DNA from: Methylovulum miyakonense HT12
GTDB taxonomy: Bacteria > Pseudomonadota > Gammaproteobacteria > Methylococcales > Methylomonadaceae
Direction of reading: 5' to 3'
Assembly: GCF_000384075.1 (NCBI RefSeq)
Contig: NZ_KB913025.1
Span: forward strand, 3,140,045-3,204,044
DNA length: 64,000 bases
Below, piece by piece: positions 6,738 through 60,060 of the stretch. Both the position numbers and the translations under genes were made by a program. The notes under the pieces are model-generated. The model ran no database searches, was not told the DNA's origin, and saw only the letters and a program-made list of their open reading frames with translations. The stretch's first letter is position 1; every line of letters begins with the position of its first letter.

Positions 6738-9700
6738 ATGTCCACCACCGAACAGCTCCAACAACTCACCCGCCAATTACCACTGTGTCTGAACCAAGAC
6801 CGTCACGCGCTGAAACGGCAGTTAGACCGTTTGCGTCAGGATGCCAAAAAAGGTAAGCCTATAGATAGTGCGTTAGCGAATCTTGCCAGCCGGATTGATA
6901 AATCCGTGGCGTTCAGGAATAAACGCCTTGCCAGTATTCCGCCGCTGAACTTCCCTGATTTGCCTGTCACTGGCAAAAAAGACGAGATTGCCGAATTGAT
7001 TAAAAACCATCAAGTGGTAGTGATGTGCGGTGAGACCGGATCAGGCAAAACCACGCAATTGCCGAAAATTTGTTTGTCGATAGGGCGCGGCGCGGCGGGT
7101 TTTATTGGCCATACCCAACCACGCCGGATTGCGGCGCGGACGGTGGCAGACCGGATTGCCGAGGAATTAGGCGAGCCGATGGGCAAATCGGTGGGTTATA
7201 AAATCCGTTTTAACGACAAAACCCATGCTGAATCGCTGGTTAAACTGATGACCGACGGGATTTTGTTGGCGGAATCGCAAAATGACCCTTACTTAAACCA
7301 ATACGACACCATCATTATTGACGAGGCGCACGAGCGCAGCCTGAACATTGATTTTTTGCTCGGTTATATGAAATGGCTGTTGCCGAAACGGCCTGATCTG
7401 AAACTTATCATCACCTCGGCGACGATTGATACCAAGCGCTTTTCAGAACACTTTGGTAATGCGCCGATTATTGAAGTGTCGGGACGAACCTATCCGGTGG
7501 ATGTCCGCTATCGTCCGATCGAACCCAAAGATGGTGATGAAGAAGCGGCGAACGACGAGACTACCGATGACCTTCAAAATGCGATTCTCGATGCGGTCGA
7601 TGAACTGACCCGTGATTTGCGCGGCGATATTCTGATTTTTTTAAGCGGCGAGCGGGAAATCCGCGAAACCACCGATTCCTTAAAAAAACACCATCCCACG
7701 CAATACGACATTTTGCCGCTCTACTCCAAGCTCAGCGTCAGTGAGCAAGAGCGCGTGTTCAATCCCAAAGGCGGCAAAATCCGCATCGTCTTGGCAACCA
7801 ACGTTGCCGAAACGTCGCTCACCGTGCCAGGAATACGCGGCGTAATCGACACAGGCCACGCCCGCATCAGCCGTTACAGCCCCAAAAGCAAAATCCAACG
7901 CTTGCCGATTGAACGCATCTCGCAATCGAGCGCGAACCAACGAGCCGGACGTTGCGGACGGGTCGCAGAAGGTATTTGTATCCGTTTGTATTCGCGCCAA
8001 GATTACGAAGCCAGACCGGAATTCACGGAACCGGAAATTTTGCGGACAAATTTGTCGGCAGTTATTTTGCAAATGTTGGCCTTGAAATTGGGTGATATTG
8101 AGGATTTTCCTTTTATCGAGCCGCCCGATGACAAAATGATCCGTGACGGCAAAACCATGTTGCACGAGGTCAACGCCCTCGATAAAGCGGGGCAACTGAC
8201 CGAAACGGGTAAACAGTTAGCAAAATTCCCGACCGATCCGAAATTGGCGCGGATGTTGGTTGCCGCGCATGAGGAAGGTTGTTTGCACGAAGTGGCGATT
8301 ATCGTCGCAGCTTTGAGTGTTCAAGACCCACGTGATAAACCAGCGGAAAAAATGGGTCAGGCCGAAGCCAAACACGCGGCTTTCCGTCATCCTGAATCGG
8401 ATTTCTTGACGCTGCTCAATTTGTGGAACACTTACGAGGCGCAGAAAAAGCACCTGTCCAACAGCAAATTGCGGAAATATTGCTCGGACAATTTTTTGTC
8501 TTATCTCAGGATGCGCGAGTGGTTTGATATTCACGCGCAGATTTTGCAGGTGGTGAAGGGCGATTTGAACATGAGCGTGAGCGAACCCGTTGCCCGCTTG
8601 GTGAAGAATGAGGAAAAATCCGTTAAGCCGCCTAAACCTAAAGATATTAAATCTGAAGTGCGGGATATTTTATCGAATGACCGCTACGAAAACATCCACC
8701 GCGCCTTATTAACGGGCTTGCTCTCAAACATCGGTTTCCGCCACGAAACCCACGAATACCTGGGCGCACGCGGCCTCAAATTTTTCATCTTCCCAGGCTC
8801 TGGCCTGCATAAGCTCAAACCTAAATGGATTATGGCGGCGGAGCAAGTCGAGACCAGCAAAGTCTATGCCCGTAACGTGGCACGTATCGAACCGGAATGG
8901 ATAGAGGCCTGCGCGGGGCATTTGGTCAAGCACACGCATTACGACCCGCATTGGGAGAAAAAGGCCGGACGCTCGGCGGTTTACGAACGCACCATGCTCT
9001 ATGGCCTCACTTTGCAAGCGGGTCGGAAAATTCCTTATGAGCGAGTTGATGCCAAATCAGCACGTATGCTCTTTATCCAATCGGCTTTGGTCAGCCACGA
9101 ATACCACAGCAACGCGCCGTTTTATGTCGCCAACCAAAAGCTCTTGGAAGAAGTCGGCATGATCCAGCATAAAGGGCGGCGCGTCGATTTGGTCGAAGAT
9201 GAATTGTGGCTGTATTCGTTTTATGACCAAAAACTGCCCGCCGAAGTGGTCAATGGCATCACGCTAGACCAATGGCGCAAAACCGTTGAAAAGACTAATC
9301 CGAAATTTTTGTTCCTGACCAAGGAAGATTTGACCCGCGAAAAAGACGGTTACGTTAACGAATGGGATTATCCTGACCATAAGAAAATCGGCAATCTCAG
9401 CATCGCCTTGCAATACCGTTTTGAACCCGGTCATGACGAAGATGGCGTGACGGCGGTGATTCCGGTGCATCAGCTCAACCAATTATCGCCTGTGCCGTTT
9501 GATTGGCTAGTGCCGGGGATGCTGGAAGAAAAATGTATCGCACTGATAAAAGCCTTGCCGAAAAATATCCGCAAGCATTTTGTACCCGTGCCGGAAACCG
9601 TGAAACGTTGTTTGGAAATCGAGCCGGATTTTAAAGGGACATTGCAAGGATGGCTCGGCAACCGTCTGCGCAAATTGACTGGCGAAGCGATTCCGTTGAA

Positions 9701-17502: not shown

Positions 17503-18522
17503 ATGAACGATATGTGGCATAAAAATCATCCGGAACGGAGGAAGGGCTCCATGGTTGTGGTGGCCTTGTTTCTTTTCTTGCTAAGTTTTTCTTTAGCCGC
17601 CGAAGAAATGATCTTGAAACATGCCACCTTCATGCCGCTGTGGAGCCCGCAGGCCCAGTTTGCCGGGTATTATGTGGCTCTCGACAAGGGAATCTATGCC
17701 CGTTACGGCATCGCCTTGAAAATTCTTGAGTCGGGGCCCGGAAATTTTCCTGACCAAGCCCTAAAGGAAGGTAAGGCGGACTTCGCAATCCTGTGGCTTA
17801 CCACCGCCATTAAGTGCCGTGCTGCCGGTATGAAACTGGTCAATTTGGCGCAGATCATCCAGAAATCATCCCTGATGCTGGTTTCAAAAAAATCCGCCGG
17901 TATCAGGACTGTCGCCGACATGGATGGCAAGAAAGTGGGGCTTTGGGTCGGCGACTTGTCAATACCTCCGCTGGTCCTGTTTGCCAAACACCACATCAAA
18001 GTCCAAGCAGTCCCGCAGTCCCACACCGTTAACTTGTTTTTGCGTGGCGGCATTGACGTGGCTTCCGCTATGTGGTTCAACGAATACCATACGATTTACA
18101 GTTCGGGGGTCGATTTTGATGAATTGAATGTCGTTTCCTTCAGTGGGGAGGGAATGAATTTTCCGGAAGACGGGATCTACACTATGGAACAAGGTCTCCA
18201 CAAAGACCCGGCCCTGGCGGAAGCCTTTGTTGCGGCGTCGCTGGAGGGATGGCGTTACGCTTTTGCCCATCCCGACGAGGCCTTGGACATTGTGATCAAA
18301 TATATGCGCGAAGCCAAGGTGCCTGCCAACCGCGTCCACCAGAAATGGATGTTGGATAGGATGCGGGACCTGCTGGTGACAGGCACACGCCAAGAACCGC
18401 CCGGGCATCTCGATGAGCAGGATTACGGGTATGTGGGGCGTGTAATGCAAGAAGCCGGCCTGATCCGTAATTATCCCGATTACAATGACTTTGCCTGGAG
18501 AGCGGATGCCGAGAAAAAATAG
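17503..18522 (+). CDS. NMT1/THI5-like periplasmic solute-binding protein
   Basis: The protein has about 339 residues: a basic N-terminus with RRKGS, a hydrophobic signal segment (VVVALFLFLLSFSLA), then a type II binding-protein fold typical of the NMT1/THI5 and SsuA-like group (PLWSPQAQFAGYYVALDKGIYARYGI near the mature start). This family delivers thiamine precursors, sulfonates, nitrate or similar solutes to ABC transporters. No dedicated permease of that type is present, so it may act as a ligand sensor for the next gene. Two starts are possible: 17503 gives the basic n-region; 17551 has a better ribosome binding site (GGAGG) but lacks basic residues. It overlaps the SpoIIE gene by 17 bp. 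Confidence 0.8.
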   Translation: MNDMWHKNHPERRKGSMVVVALFLFLLSFSLAAEEMILKHATFMPLWSPQAQFAGYYVALDKGIYARYGIALKILESGPGNFPDQALKEGKADFAILWLTTAIKCRAAGMKLVNLAQIIQKSSLMLVSKKSAGIRTVADMDGKKVGLWVGDLSIPPLVLFAKHHIKVQAVPQSHTVNLFLRGGIDVASAMWFNEYHTIYSSGVDFDELNVVSFSGEGMNFPEDGIYTMEQGLHKDPALAEAFVAASLEGWRYAFAHPDEALDIVIKYMREAKVPANRVHQKWMLDRMRDLLVTGTRQEPPGHLDEQDYGYVGRVMQEAGLIRNYPDYNDFAWRADAEKK

Positions 18523-20467
18523 TATCGTCACCAAGCTCATCCTGGTGATCACGCTCAGCAGTGTGCTGATTTTTGCCGTGACGCTCGGTTATAACTATTA
18601 CCAGTCGCGCATGATCCTGGAACGTGAGTTGGAGAACAATGCGCATAATCTGGTCTCGTCGTTGGTCTATCGGGTGGAGACGGAACTGATGTCAGTTGCC
18701 AAGGTTGCGGAAGGGGTGGCTAGGTCATTGGAAACCAGCAAACATTCGGAGCAGGAATTGTTGGCCCTGCTCAGGACGACCGTCGAAAAAAACCCCGAAA
18801 TGTACGGTTCGGGCATCGCTTTTGAACCCTATGCTTTTAGCGCCGAGTCCCGGCTGTATGCGCCTTATTATTACCGTGAAAAAGGCAGGATCGCTTTCAG
18901 CCGCCTGGATAAATCTTATCGCTACGTCCCGTATTTGTATTGGGATTGGTACCAGATTCCGCGGGAGCTGGGCAAGCCCGAATGGAGCGAACCCTATTTC
19001 GATGAGGGCGCGGGCAATATTTTGATGGCGACCTGTTCAGTCCCTTTCTATGGGGGGACGGGCGCCACGAAGCGGCTCCGGGGGATTGTGACGGCGGATA
19101 TTTCCCTGGATGCGCTGACGGAACTCATTTCCTCCGTCAGGATACTCAGAAGTGGCTACGCCGCGCTGCTCTCCCGCAACGGGATGATACTTGCGCACCC
19201 CTTGAAGGGCGCCATCATGAATGAGACGTTCTTTAGCATCGGGGAGTCACGTAATGACCCTTCATTACGGGAACTGGGCAAAAAAATGGTCAGGGGTGAA
19301 TCCGGCTTCATACTCTACAATAGCCTGATGGGGGTCAGGAGTTGGCTGTATTACGCGCCTGTCCGGTCGACTGGCTGGACGCTGGCGGTGGTGTTCCCGG
19401 AGGAAGAGCTGCTTGAAAATGTCAAACAGTTAAGTATGACCATGGCCGCCATGGGTTTCTTCGGGCTGATGTTGCTGGTTTCGGCGGTTGTCCATATTGC
19501 CAGGACCATCATCAAGCCCTTGGAATTGTTGGCTGATGCAACTGATGAAATCGCTGCCGGGAATTTTGATGTGGTGATGCCAAGTGTGGCCTCGGATGAT
19601 GAGGTGGGTGTCCTGGCCCACGATTTTCAAGTGATGGCCGCGTCACTCAAGGATTACATCAAAAATTTGACCGAAACCACCGCCGCAAAGGAACGTATCC
19701 AAAGCGAACTCAAGGTCGCCACCCATATCCAGGAAAGCCTGTTGCCCCGCTTGTTCCCGCCGTTTCCTAACCACCCCGAATTTGAGATATACGCGTCGAT
19801 GGTGCCTGCCAAAGAGGTGGGCGGTGACTTCTACGATTTCTTTTTTATAGATGACTACAACCTGTTGTTCCTGATTGGGGACGTCTCCGACAAGGGGGTG
19901 CCTGCGGCATTGTATATGATGGTGACAAAAACCCTTTTGAAGTCGGAAGGGCAACGGTTGGGCGAACCGGATAAGATACTGTCTTCCGTCAACAAAATCC
20001 TCGCGGCCGACAATGACAGTTGCATGTTCACGACAGTGTTCTGCGCCATACTCGATGTCAGGACAGGCGAGGTGCGTTTTGCCAATGCCGGGCATAATCC
20101 CCCGCTGATCATCGAGTCAGGGGATGTGCGTTACCTGGCCGTGAAACCTGGGTTAATGCTTGGCCCTATGGCGGGAACGGTTTATGGGACTGAGCGTATC
20201 AGCTTAAAGCCCGGGGATATGCTGTTCCTTTATACGGATGGCGTCACTGAAGCAATAAACCAGCAAGAGGAACTGTATGGTGAGCGGCAGTTGCTGAAGG
20301 CGTTGCTGCTCGCCCCTAAAGGGGATGTTTCAGGCATGGTCCACTATATCAGCGCCGAGGTGTCACGACATGCCGCTGGAGCCCCCCAATCAGACGACAT
20401 CACCATGTTGGCGATAAAAATGACGGACAATACGATGGGCATCGAAAGTGCCAGAAGCGGCGCATGA
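18506..20467 (+). CDS. Membrane sensor phosphatase: Cache-HAMP-SpoIIE (PP2C)
   Basis: The protein has about 653 residues. A first transmembrane helix (LILVITLSSVLIFAVTLGY) is followed by a periplasmic double-Cache-like sensor to about residue 300, a second helix (MAAMGFFGLMLLVSAVVHIA), a HAMP linker, and a C-terminal PP2C/SpoIIE phosphatase. Metal-binding motifs are visible: EVGGDFYDFF, IGDVSDKGVPAALYM, NAGHNPP, LYTDGVTEA and QSDDITMLA. SpoIIE/RsbU-type enzymes dephosphorylate STAS antagonist proteins, and one is encoded three genes downstream. The simplest reading is that an extracytoplasmic signal controls this phosphatase and thereby the STAS protein. It overlaps the genes on both sides, showing tight translational coupling. 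Confidence 0.93.
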   Translation: MPRKNSIVTKLILVITLSSVLIFAVTLGYNYYQSRMILERELENNAHNLVSSLVYRVETELMSVAKVAEGVARSLETSKHSEQELLALLRTTVEKNPEMYGSGIAFEPYAFSAESRLYAPYYYREKGRIAFSRLDKSYRYVPYLYWDWYQIPRELGKPEWSEPYFDEGAGNILMATCSVPFYGGTGATKRLRGIVTADISLDALTELISSVRILRSGYAALLSRNGMILAHPLKGAIMNETFFSIGESRNDPSLRELGKKMVRGESGFILYNSLMGVRSWLYYAPVRSTGWTLAVVFPEEELLENVKQLSMTMAAMGFFGLMLLVSAVVHIARTIIKPLELLADATDEIAAGNFDVVMPSVASDDEVGVLAHDFQVMAASLKDYIKNLTETTAAKERIQSELKVATHIQESLLPRLFPPFPNHPEFEIYASMVPAKEVGGDFYDFFFIDDYNLLFLIGDVSDKGVPAALYMMVTKTLLKSEGQRLGEPDKILSSVNKILAADNDSCMFTTVFCAILDVRTGEVRFANAGHNPPLIIESGDVRYLAVKPGLMLGPMAGTVYGTERISLKPGDMLFLYTDGVTEAINQQEELYGERQLLKALLLAPKGDVSGMVHYISAEVSRHAAGAPQSDDITMLAIKMTDNTMGIESARSGA

Positions 20468-23463
20468 AAATAGCGGCGGCATTTATGCTGGTCTTGCTGG
20501 CGGTGATGGCTGGCCTTGGCAGTTGCAGTAAAACGGAAACCGTCATCGCCAATTTTGATGACGCGCAAACGGCAAAAATTGGCGTGATGACCGGCTCCAC
20601 AGGCGAGGCCATCGCCCAGGCAAAATTCCCTAAGGCGCAGGTCAAAAGCTTTGACGACATTATGGACGCGGTTGCGGCCATCAAATCCGGTCAAATCGAC
20701 GCGATCGTGACCGCGTTCCCGGCCGCGCTACAGGTCACCAAAAAGAACCAGGAATTGGGGCTGTTGCCTGAACCGCTGGCTAATGAAGACACGGCCATTG
20801 CGGTCATGAAGGGGAATGCCGGGCTGCTGGCTTCCTTGAACCGGATTATCACAGGGCTAAAGCAGGACGGCACGCTGGAGTCCATGCAGAAGCGCTGGTT
20901 CAAGCCGGATTTGACGCCTTATGAGGAATTGCAAATAACCCTGCCGACCCAGGGGACGCCGCTAAAAATAGGGGTCAGCGCGACACGGGAACCCTTTAGT
21001 TTTGTTGACAAGACTGGCCGCGTGACTGGCCATGACGGCGAATTGGCCAGGCTTATCGGCGCCAAGCTTAACAGGCCCGTCGTGTTTTTGAATATGAAGT
21101 TCATGGCCTTGATCCCCGCGTTGCAATCGGGGAAGGTGGATATGATCGTCACCGGCATGACCGCAACGGAGGGGCGCAAAAAATTTGTCGATTTCACCGG
21201 GCCTTATTATGCCAATGCCCAAGTCATGCTGGTCAGGAAAGCCGCTGCCAGTGCGCCCGTTGCGGCAACGGCGGCGGATGCCAAGGCCATTACGGATTTG
21301 CAAGCCCTAGACGGCAAGCGGATCGCCGTGCTCTCCGGTTCCGCCGGCGACTTGGCGGCCCGCAAGCACTTTCCCAACGCCCGTTTCCAAGCGCTGGCCG
21401 CGTCGGCGGATGCGGCGCTGGCGGTCAAAACCAATAAGGCCGACGCGTTTGTCTATGACAAAAGCGTGCTGCTCAATGTGGCCGAGAAAAACCCGGAATT
21501 GGCGATTGTCGCCCAGCCGGTTGACCAGTTGGAAGTGGCGGCGGCCATCAACAAAGACAACCCAGCCCTGCTGGCCAGGATCAACGCCGTCTTGGTCAGT
21601 TTGAAAAAGGAAGGGGAACTCGACCGCTTACGGTCTAAATGGGTGGATTCCAAATATTCGGTCACGCCGCCGTTGCCAACAATCGCCAAGCCCGGAAGCC
21701 AGGGCGTGTTGAGGATGGGCACCAGCGCGACCATTGAGCCTTTTTCCTTCCAGGCTGACGGCAAGCTGACCGGTTTGGACATAGAGCTGGGCCAATTGCT
21801 AGGCCAGCGCCTGGGCAAAAAAATCGAGGTTATTGACATGAATTTTGAGGCGTTGATCCCGGCCTTGCAGTCCGGCAAAATTGATTTTGCGCTGTCCAAT
21901 TTTAATGTCACGGAGGAGCGCAAAAAACTGGTGCTTTTTTCTTTGCCTTATATCCAAAACGACATATCTGCGTTGGTGCGCAAATCCGTCCCCTCCCAAG
22001 CCGTTGCCGTGCAAACGGGAAAGCTGGCTTCGGTGGCCGACCTGGCCGACAAACGCATCGGCGTGCTGTTGGGTTCCGCGCACGACACTTATGCGACCCG
22101 ACACTACCCCAAGGCGACCATACTACAATACAAAGCGCCTGCCGACGTCGCGCTGGCAGTAAAAACCGGCAAAGTTGATTCCGCCTTGTTCGATGCCGAA
22201 CCCTTGCGCGAAATTATGCGTCAGGACGACTCGTTCGCGCTGGTGGGCGGGCCGTTGTTTTCCTTTGGCGTTGGTGCCGGGTTCAACAAAAGTAACGGTG
22301 CGTTGAAACAGCAATTCGACCGCTTTTTGGCGCAGCTCAAAACCGATGGCGTTTACGGCGATATGGTCAAACGCTGGATGGAAACGGGTGACACACGGAT
22401 GCCCGCCATTAAGAATCCCCAAACTAACGGCAGCCTGGGCATCGGTGTCAGCGATGCCGGGATGCCGTTCACGATGGTTAAGGACAATCAACTGGTCGGC
22501 TTTGACATAGAACTGGCCGCCCGCTTTGCCGCGCAGCTTGGTAAAGAGGCCAAATTTGCCAACATGGAATTCGGCAGCCTGATTGCGGCGGTGGCGACAG
22601 GCAAGGTGGACATCATTATCAGCTCCATTTACATCACCGAGGAACGGCAAAAACAGATCGATTTTTCCGTCCCTTATTACGAAATGGGCACACGGGTGTT
22701 CGCGCTGAAACAAAACGTCGCCGGTTACACCGCCCCGGTGGTGGCCCAAGCCGCACCGGTTTCTTTCCTGACGGGGATCGCCAACAGTTTTGACAGCAAC
22801 ATCATCCAGGAAGACCGTTATTTGCTGATCTGGGACGGCCTGAAAACCACGGTGACCATTTCGGTGTTTTCCGCCTTGTTCGGAACCCTGCTGGGCGGCC
22901 TCGTCTGTTTCATGCGCATGTCGAAAAAAATCGCCCTGAACCTACCGGCACGGCTGTATATCGGCATCCTGCGCGGCATGCCGGTCCTGGTGCTATTGAT
23001 GCTGATTTTTTATGTGGTGTTCGCCTCCGTGGACATCAGCCCGGTGCTGGTGGCGATTATCGCCTTCGGCATGAATTTCGCCGCTTATGTGTCCGAGATT
23101 TTCAGGACGGGCATCCAGGGTGTCGATAGGGGGCAATCCGAGGCGGGTATCGCGATGGGCTTCACCAGAATCCAGACTTTCCTGTTCATCGTGCTGCCGC
23201 AGACCGTGCAACGTATTTTGCCGGTTTATAAGGGCGAATTCATTTCCCTGGTCAAGATGACCTCGATAGTCGGTTACATCGCCGTGCAGGATTTGACCAA
23301 GGCCAGCGACATTATCCGCAGCCGTACTTTCGACGCGTTTTTTCCGCTGGTCATGGTTGCGGTCCTGTACTTTTTAATATCGTGGGCGCTGATGCAATTC
23401 CTGGAATACTTGGAGCGGGCCACCGACCCGAAACACAAACGGCGCAAGGTAGGGAAGGTATGA
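20464..23463 (+). CDS. Lipoprotein-like fusion of tandem SBP_bac_3 binding lobes with an amino-acid-type ABC permease
   Basis: The 999-residue protein starts with a lipobox-like signal sequence (GLGSC, Cys21). Then come a lone C-terminal half of a family 3 binding domain (about 35-148), two complete binding domains (166-395 and 414-640), and a lone N-terminal half (657-750). A HisM/GlnP-type permease follows (about 785-990) with the EAA-loop sequence [24 protein letters not shown]. Repeated motifs such as PFSF, [16 protein letters not shown] and TEERKK identify the lobes. It should import polar amino acids or related solutes with the ATPase encoded next. The order half-full-full-half is unusual and suggests one expanded binding protein cut out of register. 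It overlaps both neighbours by 4 bp. Confidence 0.9.
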
Positions 23464-24575
23464 TCAAAGTAGGGCACCTTTCCAAATCATTTGCTGGCAC
23501 CACGGTCTTGGCAGACATCAGCACGGAAATAAAAAAAGGCGAGGTCATCGCCATCATCGGCCCGTCCGGCACGGGCAAAAGCACCTTCCTACGTTGCCTT
23601 AACTTGCTGGAACAGCCCAGCGGCGGCACCATCGAGATCGACGGCATGGACATCCTCGACAAAAAGGCGGACATCGCCAAAATACGCCAGAAGATGAACA
23701 TGGTGTTCCAATCGTTCAACTTGTTTTCGCATCTGTCCGTGCTCGATAACCTGACCCTGGCGCCCATCAGGCTGAAAGGCATGTCCACGCAAGACGCGCA
23801 AGCTAAAGCGTTGGAATTGCTCAGGCTGGTCGGGCTGGCGGAGAAAGCCGACAGTTATCCCGACGAGCTGTCCGGCGGCCAAAAACAGCGGGTGGCCATC
23901 GCCCGTTGCCTGGCCATGGAGCCTGAGATCATCCTCTTCGACGAGCCGACCTCCGCGCTAGACCCGACCATGATCAGCGAAGTGTTGTCGGTGATCCGCC
24001 GTTTGGCCAAAGACGGCATGACCATGGCGATCGTCACGCACGAGATGGATTTTGCCAAAGACGTGTCCAACCGGGTGCTGTATATGGATGAGGGCCTGAT
24101 CTATGAAGAAGGTAGCCCGGCGCAGATATTTGACAATCCGCAAAAGGAAAAGACCAAAGCCTTCATCAACCGGATCCGCAGTTACCATTGCCGGATTGGT
24201 TCGCCCGACTATGATTTGTATGCGATGAACGCGGAGATAGAAGCGTTTTGCGAAAAGCAGGTTTTACCCAAGAAAACCCGTGACAACCTCTTGTTGCTGG
24301 TTGAAGAATTGCTGCAAATCTATACCCCCTATCTGCCAGCCATGGCTTTTGAGATGACCATAGCCTATTCGGAAAAAAGCGGGCATCTGACCTTAATGTG
24401 CGAAAGCGCGGGCGGGCCTTTTAACCCGCTGGACAGTGGCGGCCTGCCTGATGATTTTGGCTTGATGATCATCAAAAAATTAACGGAAAGCATAACCTAC
24501 CAGTTTGTGGACGGCAAAAACCGGCTGGAGCTTTTGATGCAGAAAGGACCTAAAAATAGCCCTCATTTGGAATGA
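23460..24575 (+). CDS. Amino-acid-type ABC ATPase fused to an anti-sigma-kinase-like (HATPase) domain
   Basis: The protein has 371 residues. Residues 1-245 are a GlnQ/HisP-type ATPase: Walker A GPSGTGKS (34-41), Q-loop VFQSFN, signature LSGGQKQR (137-144), Walker [13 protein letters not shown] (157-168), H-loop THEMDF. Residues about 255-362 resemble RsbW/SpoIIAB kinases: an N-box-like helix [14 protein letters not shown], a turn [11 protein letters not shown], and a G-box-like [26 protein letters not shown]. The usual N-box Asn appears to be Ile287 and the ATP-binding Asp appears to be Ser316, so the domain may bind STAS without kinase activity. The start at 23460 overlaps the permease stop codon; a longer in-frame start at 23382 would lie inside the permease gene and is rejected. 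A STAS gene follows after 4 bp. Confidence 0.88.
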
Positions 24576-24579
24576 CATT

Positions 24580-24915
24580 ATGGATTTTAAGACAAAAAAC
24601 GAAGCTGGCACCCTCATTGTTTCAGTCGGAGGCAGGCTGGACACGGTCACCGCGCCAGAGTATGAAAAACAAATCCGTGCCTTGATTGACGGCGGCAATA
24701 GCCGGTTTGTGGTGGATTTTGCCCGGCTTGACTACATCAGCAGCGCCGGCTTGCGCGGGCTGCTCGTTATGGCCAAGCTGCTGAACGCAAAAGATGGCAA
24801 GGTCTGTTTTGCGAACGTCAATGGCAATGTCCGGTCAGTATTTGAAATGTCCGGTTTCAACGACCTGTTCAAAATAGAAAACTCGGTAAGCGAAGCCCTT
24901 GCCACGCTGGCCTGA
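24580..24915 (+). CDS. STAS-domain anti-sigma factor antagonist
   Basis: The 111-residue single-domain STAS protein has the phosphorylation-site motif FARLDYISSAGLRGLLVMAK, with the usual Ser in ISSAG (about residue 56-57). Such proteins are phosphorylated by RsbW-like kinases and dephosphorylated by SpoIIE/RsbU-like phosphatases; only one form binds the partner. Here the phosphatase is three genes upstream and the kinase-like domain is fused to the ABC ATPase directly upstream. No sigma factor gene is nearby, so the target may be the transporter itself or an unlinked regulator. Confidence 0.92.
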   Translation: MDFKTKNEAGTLIVSVGGRLDTVTAPEYEKQIRALIDGGNSRFVVDFARLDYISSAGLRGLLVMAKLLNAKDGKVCFANVNGNVRSVFEMSGFNDLFKIENSVSEALATLA

Positions 24916-30608: not shown

Positions 30609-30636
30609 TTGCTTTATTGCCACAAACACCTATAAT
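30609..30636 (+). promoter_or_regulatory. Promoter of the btuB transcript
   Basis: TTGCTT (30609-30614) and a perfect TATAAT (30631-30636) are separated by 16 bp. The predicted start near 30643 would put the whole cobalamin riboswitch at the 5' end of the transcript, which supports the call. Confidence 0.65.
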
Positions 30637-30644
30637 TACCGCTT

Positions 30645-30830
30645 GCTTTCAGGTTCCAGTGGACAAATGTCCGCTGGTTAAACGGGAAGTCGGTGAGGCC
30701 ACCCCAAATCCGACGCTGCCCCCGCAACGGTAAACCAGTAAAAGCTTGTCGTAATGCCACTGTGCTTAGCATGGGAAGGTGACAAGCCAGGCCATAAGCC
30801 ACTGGTAAGCCCGGAGACCGGCCTAAAAGC
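30645..30830 (+). promoter_or_regulatory. Cobalamin riboswitch
   Basis: The conserved elements occur in the correct order: TTCCAGTGG, AAACGGGAAGTCGGTG (30680-30696), AATCCGACGCTGCCCCCGCA followed by ACGGTAA (B12 box region, about 30707-30733), then GGGAAGG and GCCCGGAGACCGGCC. Class I-like B12 riboswitches bind adenosylcobalamin and lower expression of the downstream gene, here btuB. A hairpin region (CAGCGGCGGGCTG near 30841) follows before the btuB start. Confidence 0.95.
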
Positions 30831-31005
30831 ACTTCGGCACAGCGGCGGGCTGTCTACGAAATTAGGCTTTGTTGCGCTGGTTTACATGGGTCTTCTTTTG
30901 TGGTCGTTTTCGCGCTGTGATTTTATTTTCACGATGCGCGGGCGGCGCACGACTGCATGGATGCAGGAGGTAGAGCAATGCAGGAGCAATTGCCGAGAGG
31001 ACATC

Positions 31006-50031: not shown

Positions 50032-51267
50032 CTATAATGTGGCAGGGGCCCCTGGCCTGGTTGCCCATTTGTCCAATAATTGCAGCTGTGCCGGCAATAA
50101 CTTTGCCAGCGAGTAATGTTCCAGAACCGTTGCACGGGCGTGCCGCCTAAGCATATCCCCTAAGGTACCATTATCCAACGCTTCTTCGATACGGTCGGCT
50201 ATCGCCTGGGTATCAAAAAAGTCCACCAGCAAGCCATTGTGGCCATCTTGAATGGCTTCACGGACAGGTGCGGTGTCTGACGCGACCACCAGGCAGCCTG
50301 CCGATAAGGCTTCCAATAAGGACCATGACAACACAAACGGTTTTGTCAAATAGACATGCACGGACGAGGCCTGCAAAACCTGGAGGTAATCCCGGTAGGG
50401 TAGGGAGCCCGTGAAATGCACCCTAGTCCAGTCCAAATCCACTGTTGCCTGCATCCAACTTTTCCAGCTTTGGCCTTCAGGGGGAGGTGGGCCGTAGGCG
50501 ATGCGGTCGGCGGCGACGATCACCACATGGCAATTTGGGCGGCGGCTTAACAACCGGGTGAGGCTTTCAATGAATTGCGGGAAGCCCCGGTAAGTGTCCA
50601 TGCCCCGTGCGACATAGGTGATAATTTCTTGGGCGCCACTTAAATCCAAGCCCGGCAGTTGCAGTTTTGCCCCTGTTTTGGGCTGGAAATAATCGGTGTC
50701 GACGCCGTCATGCAAGACTTGGATACGTGGCTGGAAGGCGTCGGGGAAGCGGGAATGTTGCCAATAGGTGGGCGTCACGCCAACATCACAGGCCTCCAGG
50801 TCAATCAACATTGCGGCGTTGCTGGCGCGGAAACGCAGGATGTCATCCAGGCTGGCCGGCGGTGCGCCAGGGTCGAAATCCAGGTCGCTGCCGCGGAAAC
50901 GGGTGAACCATTCGCAATACAATAACAACGGTGTGTCGGGGAAGATGTCTTTGACGAACATGCCGCTGCCCCAGCCGGTATGCGCACAGACCAGGTCAGG
51001 CACAAAGCCTTTGGCCTTTAATTGTTCCAATATCCGCACCACCGCCTGCGCTTCCAGCACCGCATTTTCAAAGGCTTTCACATACAAATGCGTGCTGGCG
51101 TGGGCTTTCCGGGCGGGTTCGTAGACCAGTTTGGTGACTCCTGGCATCTCCGCGCTAGTTTTGTTTTGGGTGATAAAGCCAATTTTATTGTCGGGGTTAT
51201 CGGCCAGTGCGCCGGCTATGTGGCGGTATTGGGCGGGGAAGTTGTTATGGATAAACAGGATACGCAT
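50032..51267 (-). CDS. Family 4 glycosyltransferase
   Basis: The 411-residue protein has a GT-B fold of the GT4 group: an N-terminal start MRILFIHNNFPAQYRHIAGAL, an acceptor domain with HTGWGSGMFVKDIFPDTPLLLYCEWF, and a donor-sugar domain with ITYVARGMDTYRGFPQFI and the E-x7-E-like motif SWSLLEALSAGCLVVASDTAPVREAI. It transfers a sugar from a nucleotide donor to an unknown acceptor, probably for a surface glycan. It starts 4 bp after the SDR gene and is the last gene of a three-gene minus-strand operon. Confidence 0.87.
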   Translation of the reverse strand: MRILFIHNNFPAQYRHIAGALADNPDNKIGFITQNKTSAEMPGVTKLVYEPARKAHASTHLYVKAFENAVLEAQAVVRILEQLKAKGFVPDLVCAHTGWGSGMFVKDIFPDTPLLLYCEWFTRFRGSDLDFDPGAPPASLDDILRFRASNAAMLIDLEACDVGVTPTYWQHSRFPDAFQPRIQVLHDGVDTDYFQPKTGAKLQLPGLDLSGAQEIITYVARGMDTYRGFPQFIESLTRLLSRRPNCHVVIVAADRIAYGPPPPEGQSWKSWMQATVDLDWTRVHFTGSLPYRDYLQVLQASSVHVYLTKPFVLSWSLLEALSAGCLVVASDTAPVREAIQDGHNGLLVDFFDTQAIADRIEEALDNGTLGDMLRRHARATVLEHYSLAKLLPAQLQLLDKWATRPGAPATL

Positions 51268-51271
51268 ACGG

Positions 51272-51982
51272 TTATTTGAATTTGATGACTTTGTTCAAAG
51301 GGTTGAGGTTGATTTCATCGACGACCATTTGGGCGCGTGATTCCAGCACATAGAGCACGGCTTGGGCAACATCCTCTGGCAATAAGGCGTTGCTGCCGTC
51401 ATCGCCAGGCGAAAAGGATAAGGTATCGAAAAACTCCGTCCTGACCATGCCGGGGTTAACCAAGCAGACACGCACATTACTTTTGCTGCATTCCTCGCGC
51501 AAGGCTTGGGTGAAGCCCCGCAAAGCAAATTTGCTGGCGCAATAGACCGCGCCTTTCCGGCTGCCTTTTAACGCGGCTTCTGAGCCTATATAAACCAAAT
51601 CACTGCGGGGCTTACGTTTTAAGGCGGGCAACAAGGCGCGGGTCACAAAGGCTTGGCTGGTGAAATTGACGCCCATCAGCCCGTTGATCTGCCGATAAGA
51701 AAATTCTTCCAGCGAACCAAATTGGCCTTGGCCAGCGCAAAAAACCACCGAATCAATCGCCGGATAGGTGTTCACCAATTTGTTCAGGTGTTGGGGCAAA
51801 GCGTCCAGATCCGACAAATCCAGCTGCACGCCGGTAAAGCCCATGACATTTTGGCGGAATTTACCGCAATCGCGGCTTACGCCGATGACGTGATGGCCTT
51901 GTTGCAACAACACCTTGGCGATGGCGCGGCCTATGCCGGAGCTGGCTCCGGTGACCAGGGTTGTGCGTTTTACAGTGTGCAT
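51272..51982 (-). CDS. Short-chain dehydrogenase/reductase
   Basis: The 236-residue classical SDR has the NAD(P)-binding motif TLVTGASSGIGRAIAKVLL, an Arg in VSRDCG that suggests NADP preference, CAGQGQFG in place of NNAG, catalytic Ser in YIGSEAALKG and the YxxxK pair in YCASKFAL. It oxidises or reduces an unknown alcohol or carbonyl. It overlaps the radical SAM gene by 13 bp and is followed by the glycosyltransferase after 4 bp, so the three products may act together. Confidence 0.88.
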   Translation of the reverse strand: MHTVKRTTLVTGASSGIGRAIAKVLLQQGHHVIGVSRDCGKFRQNVMGFTGVQLDLSDLDALPQHLNKLVNTYPAIDSVVFCAGQGQFGSLEEFSYRQINGLMGVNFTSQAFVTRALLPALKRKPRSDLVYIGSEAALKGSRKGAVYCASKFALRGFTQALREECSKSNVRVCLVNPGMVRTEFFDTLSFSPGDDGSNALLPEDVAQAVLYVLESRAQMVVDEINLNPLNKVIKFK

Positions 51983-52962
51983 GGGAAAAATTTGTCAGAT
52001 GGGATGTGGGTCAGTATTTGCCCGGTGCAATAGCCTATCATGTCCTGTTCCAATTGTTTCGGATAGGACACCCTGCCGTTTTGCCGTTCCAAAGGGCTGG
52101 CGAAGAGCTTTTCGTCGGGATACAGGGCGTGGATTTTTTTGAAGAAATTTTCCGGCAAACGGAACACGCCCAAACTCACCGAGTGCAGCCGTTCAGGGTT
52201 GATGCGGGCAAAAACCTGTTCAAACAGCGCCTGGTAATGCGCCTGGTAATCGTGTTGGTACAGCAAAGGGTCAAAACGCAGGCCCACCAGCCAGCCCTGC
52301 TCCTGGCATTTAACTAAGGCATCCAGGCGTTTTTGTAGGGTAGGGGCTTTGGCCTCGACTTTTTCGGCGATAAGCCCTGGTGACAAACTGAACGCCACCA
52401 CCGCACGTGGCAAGGGCTCGCGGTTTAACAGGCTGCGCACTTGGGTGCTTTTAGTGCGTAATTCCAGCCACGCATTGGGCAATCCGGCGAAAAAGGGCAG
52501 AAAGCTTTCGGCAAAGCCAGTCACGGGTTCCAAAGCGAGGCTGTCGCAATCATAGCCGGAGAAAAAATGCACCGCCTCATCCGGCGTTTGTGCGCACAGT
52601 TGTGTGATGTTTTGTTGGAAATCTTCGTAATTGATGAATAGCACGTAATGTGCGGATTGGTACATGCCTTGCAAAAAACAATAACGGCAATCGTAAAGGC
52701 AATTTAAGACGTGGGAAAAATAAAAATTGCGCCGTGCGCCGATGCCGTACCCGGCGGGGGCAGGGAGGGCAAAATGTTGGTATTTTTCGGCAAGGATCAA
52801 CGCCGGTTTGAGTTTTTGCAACCGGAAATTCTGGGCCTTAGGGTTAAACACTTCCCCGTAGCGGCGGCAGGGTATGCGTGCGGCATTAGGGAAGCGCGCC
52901 AAAATTTCCAATACCCGTGGATGTTGGCGGATGGCTTCTTCTATATAAATGGTGTCGATCAT
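51970..52962 (-). CDS. Spore-photoproduct-lyase-like radical SAM protein
   Basis: The 330-residue protein has a radical SAM cluster motif CLYDCRYCFLQG (CxxxCxxC, about residues 88-95) preceded by FYFSHVLN. The segment VHFFSGYDCDSLALEP and the fold order match the SplB-like group. SplB repairs UV-induced spore photoproduct in Bacillus; homologues outside spore formers are mostly uncharacterised, and this organism is unlikely to sporulate. A DNA-repair role is one option, another is modification of a different substrate linked to the SDR and glycosyltransferase downstream. The last 13 bp overlap the SDR gene. Confidence 0.8.
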   Translation of the reverse strand: MIDTIYIEEAIRQHPRVLEILARFPNAARIPCRRYGEVFNPKAQNFRLQKLKPALILAEKYQHFALPAPAGYGIGARRNFYFSHVLNCLYDCRYCFLQGMYQSAHYVLFINYEDFQQNITQLCAQTPDEAVHFFSGYDCDSLALEPVTGFAESFLPFFAGLPNAWLELRTKSTQVRSLLNREPLPRAVVAFSLSPGLIAEKVEAKAPTLQKRLDALVKCQEQGWLVGLRFDPLLYQHDYQAHYQALFEQVFARINPERLHSVSLGVFRLPENFFKKIHALYPDEKLFASPLERQNGRVSYPKQLEQDMIGYCTGQILTHIPSDKFFPCTL

Positions 52963-53454
52963 TGTCGGGATGGTTTGGGGCTTAGGGATGAATGGCTTGC
53001 TTTCGCATGGGTGTGGCCGTCGTGGAGGTGGCTCCAGTCACTGGATGATGGGGGCAAATTAGGATCTGATGTTAGGCATTGTCCACGAAAAGCACGAAAA
53101 GCACGAAAAAAACGCACTAACGCCTTCGTGAGCAAAAATAAGCGGCAACTTGAAAGGGTCTCCCTAGCCTTTTTTCGCTTTGTAACGCAAGTTGTTCCCG
53201 TTACGTAACGATTTCAGTACCTATAGCGATTTTGAAACCTTAAGGACGGGTTTTGTCCTGCTCCGAGCAATCAAAGCCAAATAAATGCCCAGGATCCTTT
53301 CGTGCATTTTCGTGTTTTTCGTAGACAAAAGGAAGTCGTGCGTAACATCAGTTAGGATAACAATGCCGGCATTTTATATGAAAATTTTAGGGATTTATTA
53401 CTCCAGCTTTATATAGGGTAAAATACCTGCAATGATTATCTGTACAGGGACATT
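52963..53454. other. Intergenic region before proC with a MITE-like inverted repeat
   Basis: Imperfect inverted repeats of about 28 bp lie at 53081-53109 and 53298-53326 (arms built from ACGAAAAGC units, three in tandem on the left). A palindrome CGTTACGTAACG (53199-53210) lies between them. After the right arm is TGCGTAACATCAGTTA (53339-53354), also seen near 45868. No gene is supported. Confidence 0.6.
53081..53326. repeat. MITE-like element with about 28-bp terminal inverted repeats
   Basis: The left arm starts GTCCACGAAAAGCACGAAAA. The right arm in reverse complement starts GTCTACGAAAAACACGAAAA, differing by two changes in this stretch and one inserted base later. The 246-bp unit has no coding potential. 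Confidence 0.5.
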
Positions 53455-54282
53455 ATGAAAACGAATAAAATAGGTTTTATTGGCGGCGGCAATATGGCTT
53501 CAAGCCTGATGAACGGGCTGATAGCCAGCGGCCATCCCGCCGGGGCTATCTGGGTGTCCGATGTGGACGAAGCGGCGTTGGCGGCATTTGCGGTTAATCT
53601 GGGCGTTAACACGTCGCTGAGTAATGACACGGTAATTGAGGCGGTGGATGTGTTGGTTTTTGCGGTCAAGCCGCAAATACTGAAAGACGTGGCGTGCAGG
53701 GCGGCAAAGTTAATCCGGCAGCGGCAGGTATTGGTGGTTTCCATCGCGGCGGGCATCACCCAACAAAGTTTGGGGGCTTGGTTAGGCACAGAAACCGCCA
53801 TTGTGCGTTGCATGCCCAATACGCCAGCATTGGTGTTGACGGGGGCGACGGCCTTATATGCCAACCCGCATGTCTCTGCCCAACAACGGGATTTGGCGGA
53901 AAGCATTATGCGGGCGGTGGGCATTTCGCTTTGGGTTAATGAGGAAAGCGATTTGGACGCGGTGACTGCGGTGTCCGGCAGTGGCCCCGCCTATTTCTTT
54001 TTGCTGATGGAAGCGATGGAAGCAACGGCGGTAGGGCTTGGTTTGGATGCACAAACGGCACGGTTGTTGGTGCAACAAACCGCGTTGGGCGCCGCGAAAA
54101 TTGCCTTGGAATCCTCCGAGTCGCCAGAATTATTGCGTAAGCGGGTGACCTCGCCCGGAGGGACCACCCAGCAGGCGATCCAAACCTTTGAAGAAGGGGG
54201 GTTTACCCAACTGGTTGCCCGTGCGTTACATGCGGCACATGACCGTTCTATTGAAATGTCCAAACAAATGGAGAGTTCCTAA
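53455..54282 (+). CDS. proC: Pyrroline-5-carboxylate reductase
   Basis: The 275-residue protein has the NAD(P)-binding start IGFIGGGNMASSLMNGLIASG, the middle motif FAVKPQ, VRCMPNTPALV and the C-terminal dimer motif AVSGSGPAYFFLLMEAM followed by TSPGGTTQQAI. It catalyses the last step of proline synthesis, reduction of pyrroline-5-carboxylate with NAD(P)H. Its stop codon overlaps the start of the YggT gene, an arrangement common in gammaproteobacteria. Confidence 0.97.
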   Translation: MKTNKIGFIGGGNMASSLMNGLIASGHPAGAIWVSDVDEAALAAFAVNLGVNTSLSNDTVIEAVDVLVFAVKPQILKDVACRAAKLIRQRQVLVVSIAAGITQQSLGAWLGTETAIVRCMPNTPALVLTGATALYANPHVSAQQRDLAESIMRAVGISLWVNEESDLDAVTAVSGSGPAYFFLLMEAMEATAVGLGLDAQTARLLVQQTALGAAKIALESSESPELLRKRVTSPGGTTQQAIQTFEEGGFTQLVARALHAAHDRSIEMSKQMESS

Positions 54283-54857
54283 TGGATTCGAGCTATCTGA
54301 CTGATCCTATTATCCTTGTTGTCGATTCCTTATCGTCGCTCTATATTCTGGCCGTTTTATTGCGTTTTTTGTTGCAATGGTGCGGAACCTCATTTTATGA
54401 CCCCATTGCGCAATTGTTGCTTAAAATCACTCATCCGCCTTTACGCATCCTACGTCGGTTCATACCCCCTATCGGCAGGATTGACACGTCTTCTTTGGTG
54501 TTGGTGCTTTTCTTGCAGATGGCGGCCAATTTCAGCATCCTGATTTTAAAGGGGGTGACAATCAACATAGGGGCGTTGACCATTTTGTCCATCACCGATT
54601 TGGTGGCGTTGCTGATCAATATATTTATTTTTGCCGTGTTCGCACGGGCTTTATTGAGTTGGATAAATCCGGAGGCTTATAACTCGGCATCGTCGATCTT
54701 AGTGAGCTTGACCGAACCTTTACTGGATTTATGCCGTAAGGTGATCCCGGACTTAGCTGGCATAGACTTGTCCCCATTGGCGGTGTTGTTGTTTTTGCAG
54801 TTAGCTAAAATGATCATCTTGCCCCCCTTGCAACAATTGGCCAGTCTGATCGGTTAA
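54282..54857 (+). CDS. yggT: YggT-family membrane protein
   Basis: The 191-residue protein consists of two YggT repeats, each with paired hydrophobic segments and the motif DPIAQLLLKITHPPLRILRR (first) and SASSILVSLTEPLLDLCRK (second). It sits in the inner membrane. YggT proteins are found next to proC in many bacteria and have been connected with osmotic tolerance or cell-envelope organisation, but the biochemical role is unknown. Start overlaps the proC stop by one base. Confidence 0.92.
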   Translation: MDSSYLTDPIILVVDSLSSLYILAVLLRFLLQWCGTSFYDPIAQLLLKITHPPLRILRRFIPPIGRIDTSSLVLVLFLQMAANFSILILKGVTINIGALTILSITDLVALLINIFIFAVFARALLSWINPEAYNSASSILVSLTEPLLDLCRKVIPDLAGIDLSPLAVLLFLQLAKMIILPPLQQLASLIG

Positions 54858-55025
54858 CGGGCTTATTTGACTGGCTAATATAGCCATAATAGACAATGCC
54901 GTTTTGCCGTTTTGCTCGCCGCTAACAATAACGTTAAGAAAAGGTTGCCCTCAGATAATTAGGCTTTCTCTTTGGCTGGTCTTTATCCTATAATTCAAAA
55001 TCTTGTGTAAAGCATTTAAAAGTCT

Positions 55026-56903
<1,878 letters not shown>

Positions 56904-56949
56904 CTAAAATTCCAATAAATAAACTTTGTGCGCTATGGCCGCTTGGCCG

Positions 56950-57990
56950 CTATAGCTTAAAACCATTGACTTCATCAAACAAACCTTCAATATCGAAGTC
57001 ATCGTCGTCATTTACAATAATGTTGACACCGCTTTCAAGCTCCGCTGGAGATTCCCTGTCCCCATAATCAAGGACCCGTTTGAATTGCATGAGGTTGGAA
57101 ATGGCGGCTGTGAATTCGGTCAGCTCCAATGGGTAATTGCTTTGCGAATTATGGGTCATTATATCTTTAAAGGCTTTCATCAGGCTTTCCAAATCTTGCC
57201 TTAAGATGTTTGACAACCAGCGGTGCCCTACAAACAGGGCCAATAAGGCAACGAATGAGGTCGTAAAAATAAGGCTCCCTAAGAGGGCCAAATCGCCTAG
57301 CCCGGTACTATCCGGGTATTGGTAATGGATCGTCCAACCGGTATTGGCGACATTAATTTCTTTAGCGTCAATATGCCCGACAGCCATTTTGTCACCCAAG
57401 GTACCCAGCACTGCCGGCCCTTGTTTCAGTTCCATATAGCCGTTTTTTATGCTGGCAAGGCGTAAGCTTTTTAGGACGACATTTTCGTCAAAACTCGCCA
57501 GGATGACCCCTGTTATTTTGCCATTTTGGTAGATGCCACGTGCAATTGCGAAGTGCCGGCCCGCCCCTTTTTCACCTTGGATACCAGGAAATGGGTTGCC
57601 GTTCAGGGTTTCCCGCACTAACTCCAGGTCGGCAAACCCCATGCTTGGCTGGGTTTGGTCGTCAGTTTCATGGGTATCAGGCAGCAAGATCCTGATTTTG
57701 AGGATGTCAGGGATATATTGTTCGAGTTTGGCCGCCGCCATTTTTAAGAGCCCGTTGTTGCCAAGGGCCACGGCATTTAAAACGTCCGGGTCTTGGGTCA
57801 TTTTGTCCAAGGTTTTATTCAATAGGTCAATTTGCGCCGATAAGCCGAGTGCAACATTTTTTGCCTCCGCAACCGCCGATTCTTCCCGGGCTTTGGTAAT
57901 GTCAGATTGTGATAACCAGTAAATGCCAAAAGCCGTTGTGAGTATCATTAAAACTATCGCAGCCGCGAGCAAATAAAAGAGCTTTCTCAT
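56950..57990 (-). CDS. Membrane Cache-like protein resembling the N-terminal extension of long AlgC
   Basis: The 346-residue protein has an N-terminal transmembrane helix (LLAAAIVLMILTTAFGIYWL), a periplasmic PAS/Cache-like region to about 225, a second helix (LLGSLIFTTSFVALLALFVG), then a cytoplasmic tail with acidic VNDDDDFDIEGLFDE. Long AlgC-type phosphomannomutases of Pseudomonas and methanotrophs carry such an extension before the catalytic domain, and algC normally lies between dut and argB. Here the gene occupies that place but stops where the mutase domain would begin, so it may be the sensor half of a split gene. No catalytic motif is present. Confidence 0.7.
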   Translation of the reverse strand: MRKLFYLLAAAIVLMILTTAFGIYWLSQSDITKAREESAVAEAKNVALGLSAQIDLLNKTLDKMTQDPDVLNAVALGNNGLLKMAAAKLEQYIPDILKIRILLPDTHETDDQTQPSMGFADLELVRETLNGNPFPGIQGEKGAGRHFAIARGIYQNGKITGVILASFDENVVLKSLRLASIKNGYMELKQGPAVLGTLGDKMAVGHIDAKEINVANTGWTIHYQYPDSTGLGDLALLGSLIFTTSFVALLALFVGHRWLSNILRQDLESLMKAFKDIMTHNSQSNYPLELTEFTAAISNLMQFKRVLDYGDRESPAELESGVNIIVNDDDDFDIEGLFDEVNGFKL

Positions 57991-58018
57991 GTTATAACCT
58001 CAAAAATAAAGAACCGTT

Positions 58019-58474
58019 TTAATGTTGCCCAGTGTGGCCAAAGCCACCATCGCCACGTGCACTTTCCGTGAATTCGCCGACCTGCATGAATTCAACCTGT
58101 ATCACAGGCACAAAAACCATTTGCGCGATGCGTTGGCCGACATTAATGGTGAACGCCGTTGCGCCCCGGTTCCAGCAAGAAACAAAAACTTGGCCTTGAT
58201 AATCCGAATCGATCAAGCCGACCAAGTTACCCAGCACAATCCCATGCTTATGGCCTAAACCCGATCTGGGCAATAATACCGCAGCCAATTCAGGGTCATC
58301 AATAAAGATGGCCAAACCCGTTGGTATCAAAAGGCTTTCTCCAGGATAGATCAGGGTGTTTTCGTCAAGGCAGGCGCGTAAGTCCAGTCCCGCCGAACCT
58401 TCAGTTGCATATTGGGGCAGGGGGATGTCCTTGCCCAAACGGGCGTCAAGAATTTTTAGCTGTATTTTTTTCAT
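58019..58474 (-). CDS. dut: Deoxyuridine 5'-triphosphate nucleotidohydrolase (dUTPase)
   Basis: The 151-residue trimeric-type dUTPase has all five motifs: [24 protein letters not shown], the region [12 protein letters not shown], and the C-terminal GDGGFGHTG with the Phe that stacks on uracil. It hydrolyses dUTP to dUMP and diphosphate, keeping uracil out of DNA. The coaBC and dut genes overlap by 4 bp as in many proteobacteria. Confidence 0.97.
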
Positions 58475-59682: not shown

Positions 59683-60060
59683 AAACGGCTATTATGGCAA
59701 GTCTGGATAAATTGTTCTAGGCTTAATCGTATGCGGAAAGACGGTTTTCTTGAAACAATAGGATATGCCGGATCATGTAACGGCTATTCTATGGTATGGG
59801 GCATTTTGCCGTAGCGCCTACCCAACCTATATTAAGCAGATAAGGGAAATGGCAAGCATCCATAGGGCCATTTGTTTGGCCAGTTAGGGTCTGGGTGAAT
59901 TCCCATACGGAACTGAAATTTACTCCATAAAAACTATATTTTGTGTTAATCTTTATTTTTTTCACTATATGCAGTGTCGGTGTCTGCCGTTTTTTGAAAT
60001 TTGTCCGTCTTAAACCGCCTGCTAGCCATCCCCACCTATCACAGCACCCCCTATACCATT
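59683..60060. other. Divergent intergenic region between coaBC and the nrdJb-like gene
   Basis: AT-rich sequence without recognisable genes. It must hold the promoters for both flanking genes, but no confident -35/-10 pair was found. Confidence 0.4.

Follow-up and report, generated by a model that had tools for sequence, protein, structure and literature searches.

We describe here a cluster of five genes in a stretch of 64,000 nucleotides (hereafter the window) of the genome of Methylovulum miyakonense HT12 (4.69 Mb, one contig). The cluster encodes an ATP-binding cassette (ABC) importer of the amino-acid type together with a SpoIIE-type phosphatase and a STAS protein, and the ATPase of this importer ends in an RsbW-like domain that has lost key kinase residues. 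The cluster is a real and recurrent assembly and, as we read it, a new variant of partner switching in which the importer is probably the effector. The more precise proposal, a partner-switching circuit in which the dead kinase domain would be the docking site for the STAS protein, seems to us evenly balanced between true and false. Its fullest form, in which a complete phospho-partner switch (sensor phosphatase, kinase and STAS protein) would gate the importer post-translationally via a kinase-derived pseudokinase receptor domain fused to the motor, we put forward more tentatively. The genes are the following (positions are those of the window; g1 to g5 denote the genes in order):

17503..18522, + strand: g1, NMT1/THI5-like periplasmic solute-binding protein (Pfam PF09084, E 1.6e-36)
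18485..20467, + strand: g2, dCache-HAMP-SpoIIE (PP2C-type) phosphatase (MCP-like_PDC_1/dCache_1, HAMP, and SpoIIE at E 5.2e-50)
20464..23463, + strand: g3, binding-protein lobes fused to a permease, as in importers of the amino-acid type, 999 residues
23460..24575, + strand: g4, amino-acid-type ABC ATPase with a degenerate RsbW-like C-terminal domain (ABC_tran, E 5.4e-37)
24171..24572, + strand: tail of g4, pseudo-GHKL domain (recognised by alignments, hhalign and predicted fold)
24580..24915, + strand: g5, single-domain STAS protein, SpoIIAA/RsbV-like (Pfam STAS, E 2.2e-20)

Open reading frames and Pfam searches confirm the composition that a sequence-only reading of the window had described: five (+)-strand genes between 17503 and 24915, with these domains, whose neighbours overlap or lie 4 bases apart. 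The overlaps amount to 38 bases between g1 and g2, 4 bases between g2 and g3, and 4 bases between g3 and g4 provided that g4 starts at the ATG at 23460 (an alternative in-frame GTG lies upstream, at 23382); g4 and g5 are separated by 4 bases.

The homology of the ATPase tail to RsbW, which that reading had also proposed, is upheld by comparison of profiles. Single searches with the tail say little: the match to Pfam HATPase_c_2 falls below threshold (20.8 bits, cut-off 27.4), a tail profile run against PDB sequences gave nothing significant (best E 1.5), NCBIfam at E 0.01 has no family for the tail alone, and the plasmid search returned no match to it. A profile of 48 tails and one of 26 stand-alone RsbW-like kinases align over 124 columns (hhalign 98.1%, E 7.7e-14), and in an AlphaFold2 model of the tail plus STAS protein of a related locus, L036 (L numbers denote loci; mean predicted local distance difference test score 93.3), the tail part matches SpoIIAB (1th8_A, TM-score 0.73 by target length) as well as UsfX and RsbW chains, while the STAS part matches SpoIIAA. 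On the strength of this profile homology and predicted fold, we assign the tail to the GHKL domains of the anti-sigma kinase type.

The N-box Asn, the G1 Asp and related residues are of catalytic significance in RsbW-type kinases. All 26 stand-alone kinases retain the Glu pair, the Asn, the Asp and the GG.G box; not one of the 82 aligned tails has the N-box Asn (mostly Ile or Leu stands there instead) or the G1 Asp (mostly Ser), and the same losses are seen in alignments of nine and of 86 tail rows (two duplicates are included in the latter). The tail of g4 itself retains the Glu pair (E282/E283), with Ile287 in the column of the N-box Asn and Ser316 in that of the G1 Asp. In the hhalign alignment the tails are gapped opposite the stretch of the kinases that precedes the GG.G box, a gap that we read as the absent ATP lid. 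To judge from these residues, and against the set of N-box Asn, G1 Asp, glycine-rich loop and ATP lid expected of an active RsbW/SpoIIAB kinase, the tail looks catalytically dead. A divergent tail found by profile search, L184 (G836, 8489-9601), retains the N-box Asn and lacks the G1 Asp, as judged by eye; no STAS or kinase match lies within its 18 kb stretch, and it is perhaps an evolutionary intermediate.

A separate RsbW-like kinase gene is present near the STAS gene in 19 of the 23 STAS-bearing loci with enough flank, in a search with a profile built on RsbW-like proteins from six sources. In Geobacter-like, Chlorobi and Burkholderiaceae loci it lies downstream and shares the strand, and in Methylobacter, Nitrosomonas and Nitrotoga loci it is found just downstream, on the opposite strand; the contig stretch of L096 ends shortly after STAS. 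At the level of whole genomes, the kinase profile finds matches in 14 of 14, some of them weak and some being the tails themselves (the L064 genome has a weak match only, 1.9e-12). Two second copies in Chlorobiaceae genomes, L174 and L175, have STAS and kinase directly after the ATPase. A kinase role for the fused domain is unsupported, because the residues are absent and a kinase gene of its own accompanies STAS in most of the relatives that have it. The sequence-only reading, which had tied partner switching to an ABC importer, was right about the composition, and its link holds as a recurrent co-localisation; it took the tail at face value, and the separate kinase was not visible from the window.

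Conservation of the five-gene order, the check that this reading had itself suggested, was found in part: all five genes occur on the same strand and in the same order in 17 of 89 non-duplicate loci; the 89 include L173 (without an ATPase-tail gene) and several loci cut by contig ends. Here and in the linkage counts the duplicates L027, L028 and L030 (of L036, L037 and L049) were removed. For linkage we used the 58 of 85 non-duplicate loci with at least 5 kb upstream and at least 1.5 kb downstream. SpoIIE, STAS and kinase occur together in 19 of them, 15 of these also with NMT1; three have SpoIIE, STAS and NMT1 without kinase, and three have other partial sets. NMT1 is found in 19 of the 58, and SpoIIE is present in all 19. 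The co-occurrence of SpoIIE with STAS (Fisher 1.1e-12) and of STAS with kinase (9.3e-12) is strong over these loci, kinship not being corrected for, and the local STAS state changes 12 times by parsimony on the ATPase tree (66 loci). Around the transporter, phosphatase, STAS and kinase are mostly present or absent as a set. L058 and L114 carry the module with its genes rearranged; the STAS and kinase genes of L066 are about 3.6-3.8 kb off and may be unrelated to the importer.

The phosphorylation switch may directly control the importer, and the steps would be as follows. A periplasmic ligand would be sensed by a binding protein and the Cache domain, the NMT1 protein perhaps presenting it, and the signal would set the activity of the SpoIIE phosphatase, which would strip phosphate from STAS. 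The RsbW-like kinase, encoded by a separate gene in relatives and in the species of the window either supplied from elsewhere or lost, would rephosphorylate STAS. Unphosphorylated STAS would shuttle between this kinase and the dead kinase-like tail of the ABC ATPase, and its docking on the tail would alter the activity or the assembly of the importer.

The tail is homologous to the kinases that classically bind STAS proteins, and three patterns fit a surface of the tail that faces STAS. All 30 STAS-linked tails keep the Glu pair, as do 31 of 36 STAS-less and 15 of 16 unclassified ones (linked versus STAS-less, Fisher 0.058); G334, L335 and I337 are conserved chiefly where STAS is linked; and tails without a linked STAS evolve faster relative to the ATPase, the ratio of terminal branches between tail and ATPase having a median of 2.70 in 36 loci with STAS unlinked versus 1.84 in 30 STAS-linked loci (Mann-Whitney test, one-sided, p 0.017); with terminal branches summed, the ratios are 2.98 and 2.52. 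Sixteen of the 82 rows, whose STAS state is uncertain, were left out of this test, as were L026 and the short ATPases L049, L054 and L103.

Several observations weigh against a circuit acting through the tail. The five losses of the Glu pair are all in related Chlorobi, and the rate test leaves kinship partly in. None of SpoIIE, STAS, kinase and NMT1 lies within 8 kb of the tail ATPase in 33 of the 58 loci. "STAS-less" is here a local term: the contig of Trichlorobacter thiogenes (L095) has a STAS-kinase pair some 30 kb from the ATPase, and the genome of L044 also contains a full cluster, L046. (The genomes of L074 and L080 each hold another ATPase-tail cluster, in which STAS and kinase are present.) In MlaFB, the T52A variant is reported to be non-functional though bound, and its authors find simple phosphoregulation hard to reconcile with this (PMC7367683). 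No kinase gene adjoins STAS in the window, in L035 or in L037, nor in L080, and no active-looking GHKL kinase gene was found in the cluster of the window, where the tail lacks the residues and nothing of the kind lies beside STAS; the closest relative of the kinase in the genome is 36% identical and belongs to another cluster (C1:56813). Finally, when the stop between tail and STAS was bridged in five in-frame loci so as to fold both as a single chain, AlphaFold2 gave confident domains and a predicted TM-score (pTM) of 0.58 (L036), versus 0.71 for a STAS-kinase chain (L059) obtained by an equivalent procedure with five paired rows. Judged by pTM alone, the prediction is thus less firm for tail and STAS than for STAS and kinase, in two chains that differ in domain order and alignments; the read-through model gives no support to a tail-STAS interface, and we do not claim one from it.

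The best surviving alternative makes the transporter a sensor: the tail would capture or release STAS according to the state of transport, and STAS set free would, by way of the kinase, affect a regulator encoded elsewhere, whether a sigma factor, an anti-sigma factor or another. Gene regulation is the classic outcome of partner switching, the genome of M. miyakonense has 21 sigma-70 region-2 matches and further STAS and kinase genes, and STAS-kinase pairs also occur away from the importer, as in L173. On the other side, none of these 21 matches falls inside the window (G000:C1:3140045-3204044), which bears out the sequence-only statement that no sigma factor is encoded there, and the module accompanies the importer in many loci. 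The neighbourhoods of the relatives were searched with a profile set without regulator families, and Pfam was applied to ten proteins of relatives. We consider this alternative unlikely, although it is the one that we take most seriously. It is distinctly less probable that the genes are simply neighbours, perhaps co-regulated, and that module and importer serve a common need without interacting: the importer does occur without the module in those 33 loci, but the repeated co-occurrence, also in rearranged order, and the fusion of a kinase-like domain to the importer's own ATPase speak against it. That the tail is itself the STAS kinase, with an unusual active site, which the wording of the sequence-only reading could be taken to mean, was set aside as very improbable on its residues (N-box Asn and G1 Asp missing from every one of the 82 tails, ATP lid absent) and in view of the separate kinases of relatives, even though its homology to RsbW and its intact Glu pair, the lack of a kinase gene beside STAS in the window, and the N-box Asn of L184 speak for it.

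The predicted phosphatase g2 carries the motifs GGDFYDF (residue 446), GDVSDKG (465), YTDGVTE (583) and SDDITM (636) and resembles solved SpoIIE-type phosphatases in the PDB; its metal-binding Asp motifs recur as close variants in the five relatives compared, where L057 deviates in one motif and four of the five have the form ADVSDKG. We infer that g1 is probably a ligand-presenting sensor for g2. In g5, the predicted phosphoacceptor is Ser55 (codon 24742-24744), which aligns to the first Ser of DSSG in the SpoIIAA chain 1th8_B, a residue that we take to be the phosphorylated one; the corresponding motif ISS[ATV]G is found in 31 of 31 STAS genes that follow the ATPase at a distance of up to about 4 kb (L080 being judged by eye).

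As for the importer, Pfam finds in g3 four SBP_bac_3 stretches and a BPD_transp_1 domain at 811-987, with Lig_chan-Glu_bd scoring best at 676-749. Residues 29-147 of g3, its best-scoring stretch against 5t0w_A, align to residues 124-246 of that chain, and the permease part matches the solved permease 4yms. The apparent order is C-lobe, full binding protein, full binding protein, N-lobe and permease, as if one binding protein had been split around two complete ones (its C-lobe placed first and its N-lobe before the permease). Cys21 of g3 is invariant across 17 aligned rows and is, we assume, a possible lipobox Cys. For g4 the best NCBIfam models are TcyN and GlnQ, each under its cut-off. SBP_bac_3 domains, a HisM/GlnP-type permease and a GlnQ-type ATPase mark the importer as one of the polar amino-acid type, and the family names suggest amino acids as its substrates. 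In 81 of 92 loci (duplicates counted) the ATPase gene is closely preceded by one that encodes a permease domain. Among the others, this gene is downstream in L032, upstream behind one gene in L060 and after the kinase gene in L174 and L175; L173 lacks an ATPase-tail gene, no permease was recognised in L097, and L030, L031, L049, L054 and L103 are truncated by contig ends.

The ATPase-tail family is rare. Of 200 other genomes in the order, 8 gave strong tail matches (E < 1e-20). In a sample of 397 other genomes from the phylum, the best match to a single-sequence query was no better than 1.1e-5, and a profile search of 247 genomes from the phylum to which G608 belongs gave strong matches in 3, two of them already known. 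A scan of contigs with the tail alignment and two peptide patterns, in which 80 of 91 matches were kept (mostly from metagenome-assembled genomes, with record labels as given), recovered loci in Methylococcales, nitrifiers, Burkholderiaceae, Rhodocyclus, Desulfobacteria, Geobacter-like bacteria, Chlorobi, Gemmatimonadota, Kuenenia, Acidobacteria, Bacillota, Bacteroidota, Ignavibacteria and KSB1; divergent tails are under-sampled because of these two patterns and the matches dropped. On the ATPase tree, the copies of Nitrosomonas communis (L041) and Nitrotoga (L043) nest among those of methanotrophs, which suggests horizontal transfer.

Individual loci add some variations. Insertions of about 1.9 and 1.6 kb lie inside the clusters L025 (4722-6579) and L026 (6114-7734), one between ATPase and STAS and one within the binding-protein fusion. 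The Chlorobi loci L047, L048, L055, L062, L174 and L175 have extra stand-alone genes for solute-binding proteins, and some of the Chlorobi copies have two binding-protein/permease genes per ATPase. The STAS-kinase pair of L173 (G600:C33, 6661-7427), about 30 kb from the L095 ATPase, lies beside Tll0287/HAMP/PAS and HD-domain proteins.

A second importer cluster of the M. miyakonense genome, L148 (628-12581; G000:C1 about 50600-62600), comprises ABC_sub_bind proteins (among them one of 989 residues with three ABC_sub_bind stretches), a BPD_transp_2 permease and an ATPase. These genes are interleaved with those for a GAF-SpoIIE phosphatase, an RsbW-like kinase above the Pfam cut-off and a hybrid histidine kinase; the STAS protein carries a 300-residue extension, and Pfam finds no kinase-like domain in the ATPase (286 residues). 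The window is thus not the only place where a partner-switching module and an ABC importer are neighbours.

The genes that follow g5 are, we presume from their appearance, cobalamin-synthesis genes, and a cobalamin riboswitch (Rfam RF00174, 112.6 bits), the sole Rfam match at gathering threshold in the window, lies at 30634-30840. A link to cobalamin through the gene at 24928 was set aside because the genes that come next after STAS in L028 and L035 are on the opposite strand. No terminator-like site is listed between g5 and the next gene; over the window there are 22 such sites versus 13.3 (standard deviation 4.4) in shuffles, and 8 promoter-like sites versus 6.4 (standard deviation 2.3).

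How does this arrangement compare with known systems? RsbU/RsbV/RsbW and SpoIIE/SpoIIAA/SpoIIAB are the classic partner-switching systems, and a PP2C phosphatase, a STAS antagonist and a GHKL kinase are the shared elements (PDB matches 6m36, 1th8 and 1til); the window differs in having no sigma-factor gene, and the importer seems to replace the effector. GlnPQ-like amino-acid ABC importers have binding domains fused to the permease, as in g3, and an ATPase of the GlnQ/TcyN kind, whereas in the window the first and last lobes are apparently split and the ATPase bears a pseudo-GHKL tail. In the open-licence PMC literature (titles and abstract starts), none of the matches listed is recognisable as a description of this arrangement.

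Two systems come closer. In SiaABCD of Pseudomonas aeruginosa, the phosphatase SiaA and the kinase SiaB balance the phosphorylation of SiaC, which acts on an effector enzyme, according to the parts of the papers that we cover (PMC7647112; PMC8457831). The likeness lies in a phosphatase/kinase partner switch that acts on an effector, and SiaA is also the top NCBIfam model for g2 (E 1.1e-21, 77 bits versus a cut-off of 700); there the effector is a diguanylate cyclase, whereas here we propose an ABC importer in this place, with a dead domain resembling a kinase for docking. In the Mla system, as described in the part of the paper covered here, the STAS protein MlaB sits on an ABC ATPase, MlaF, and is needed for the complex; it contacts the helical subdomain of MlaF and the C-terminal extension of the neighbouring MlaF, and the phosphomimetic T52E weakens binding (PMC7367683). 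STAS is thus placed there on the ATPase core and a short extension, versus the proposed pseudo-GHKL tail in the window; that part mentions no phosphatase or kinase, and Mla is not an amino-acid-type importer (PMC7367683). Its authors consider the post-translational regulation of ABC transporters poorly understood, and they raise, and leave open, control of an ABC ATPase by STAS phosphorylation (PMC7367683). Here a candidate phosphatase, a STAS protein, a kinase-derived ATPase domain and, in relatives, a kinase are all encoded beside one transporter, and small soluble proteins should therefore suffice to test this question. Should the docking model prove right, it would also be a case of a receptor made from a dead GHKL kinase.

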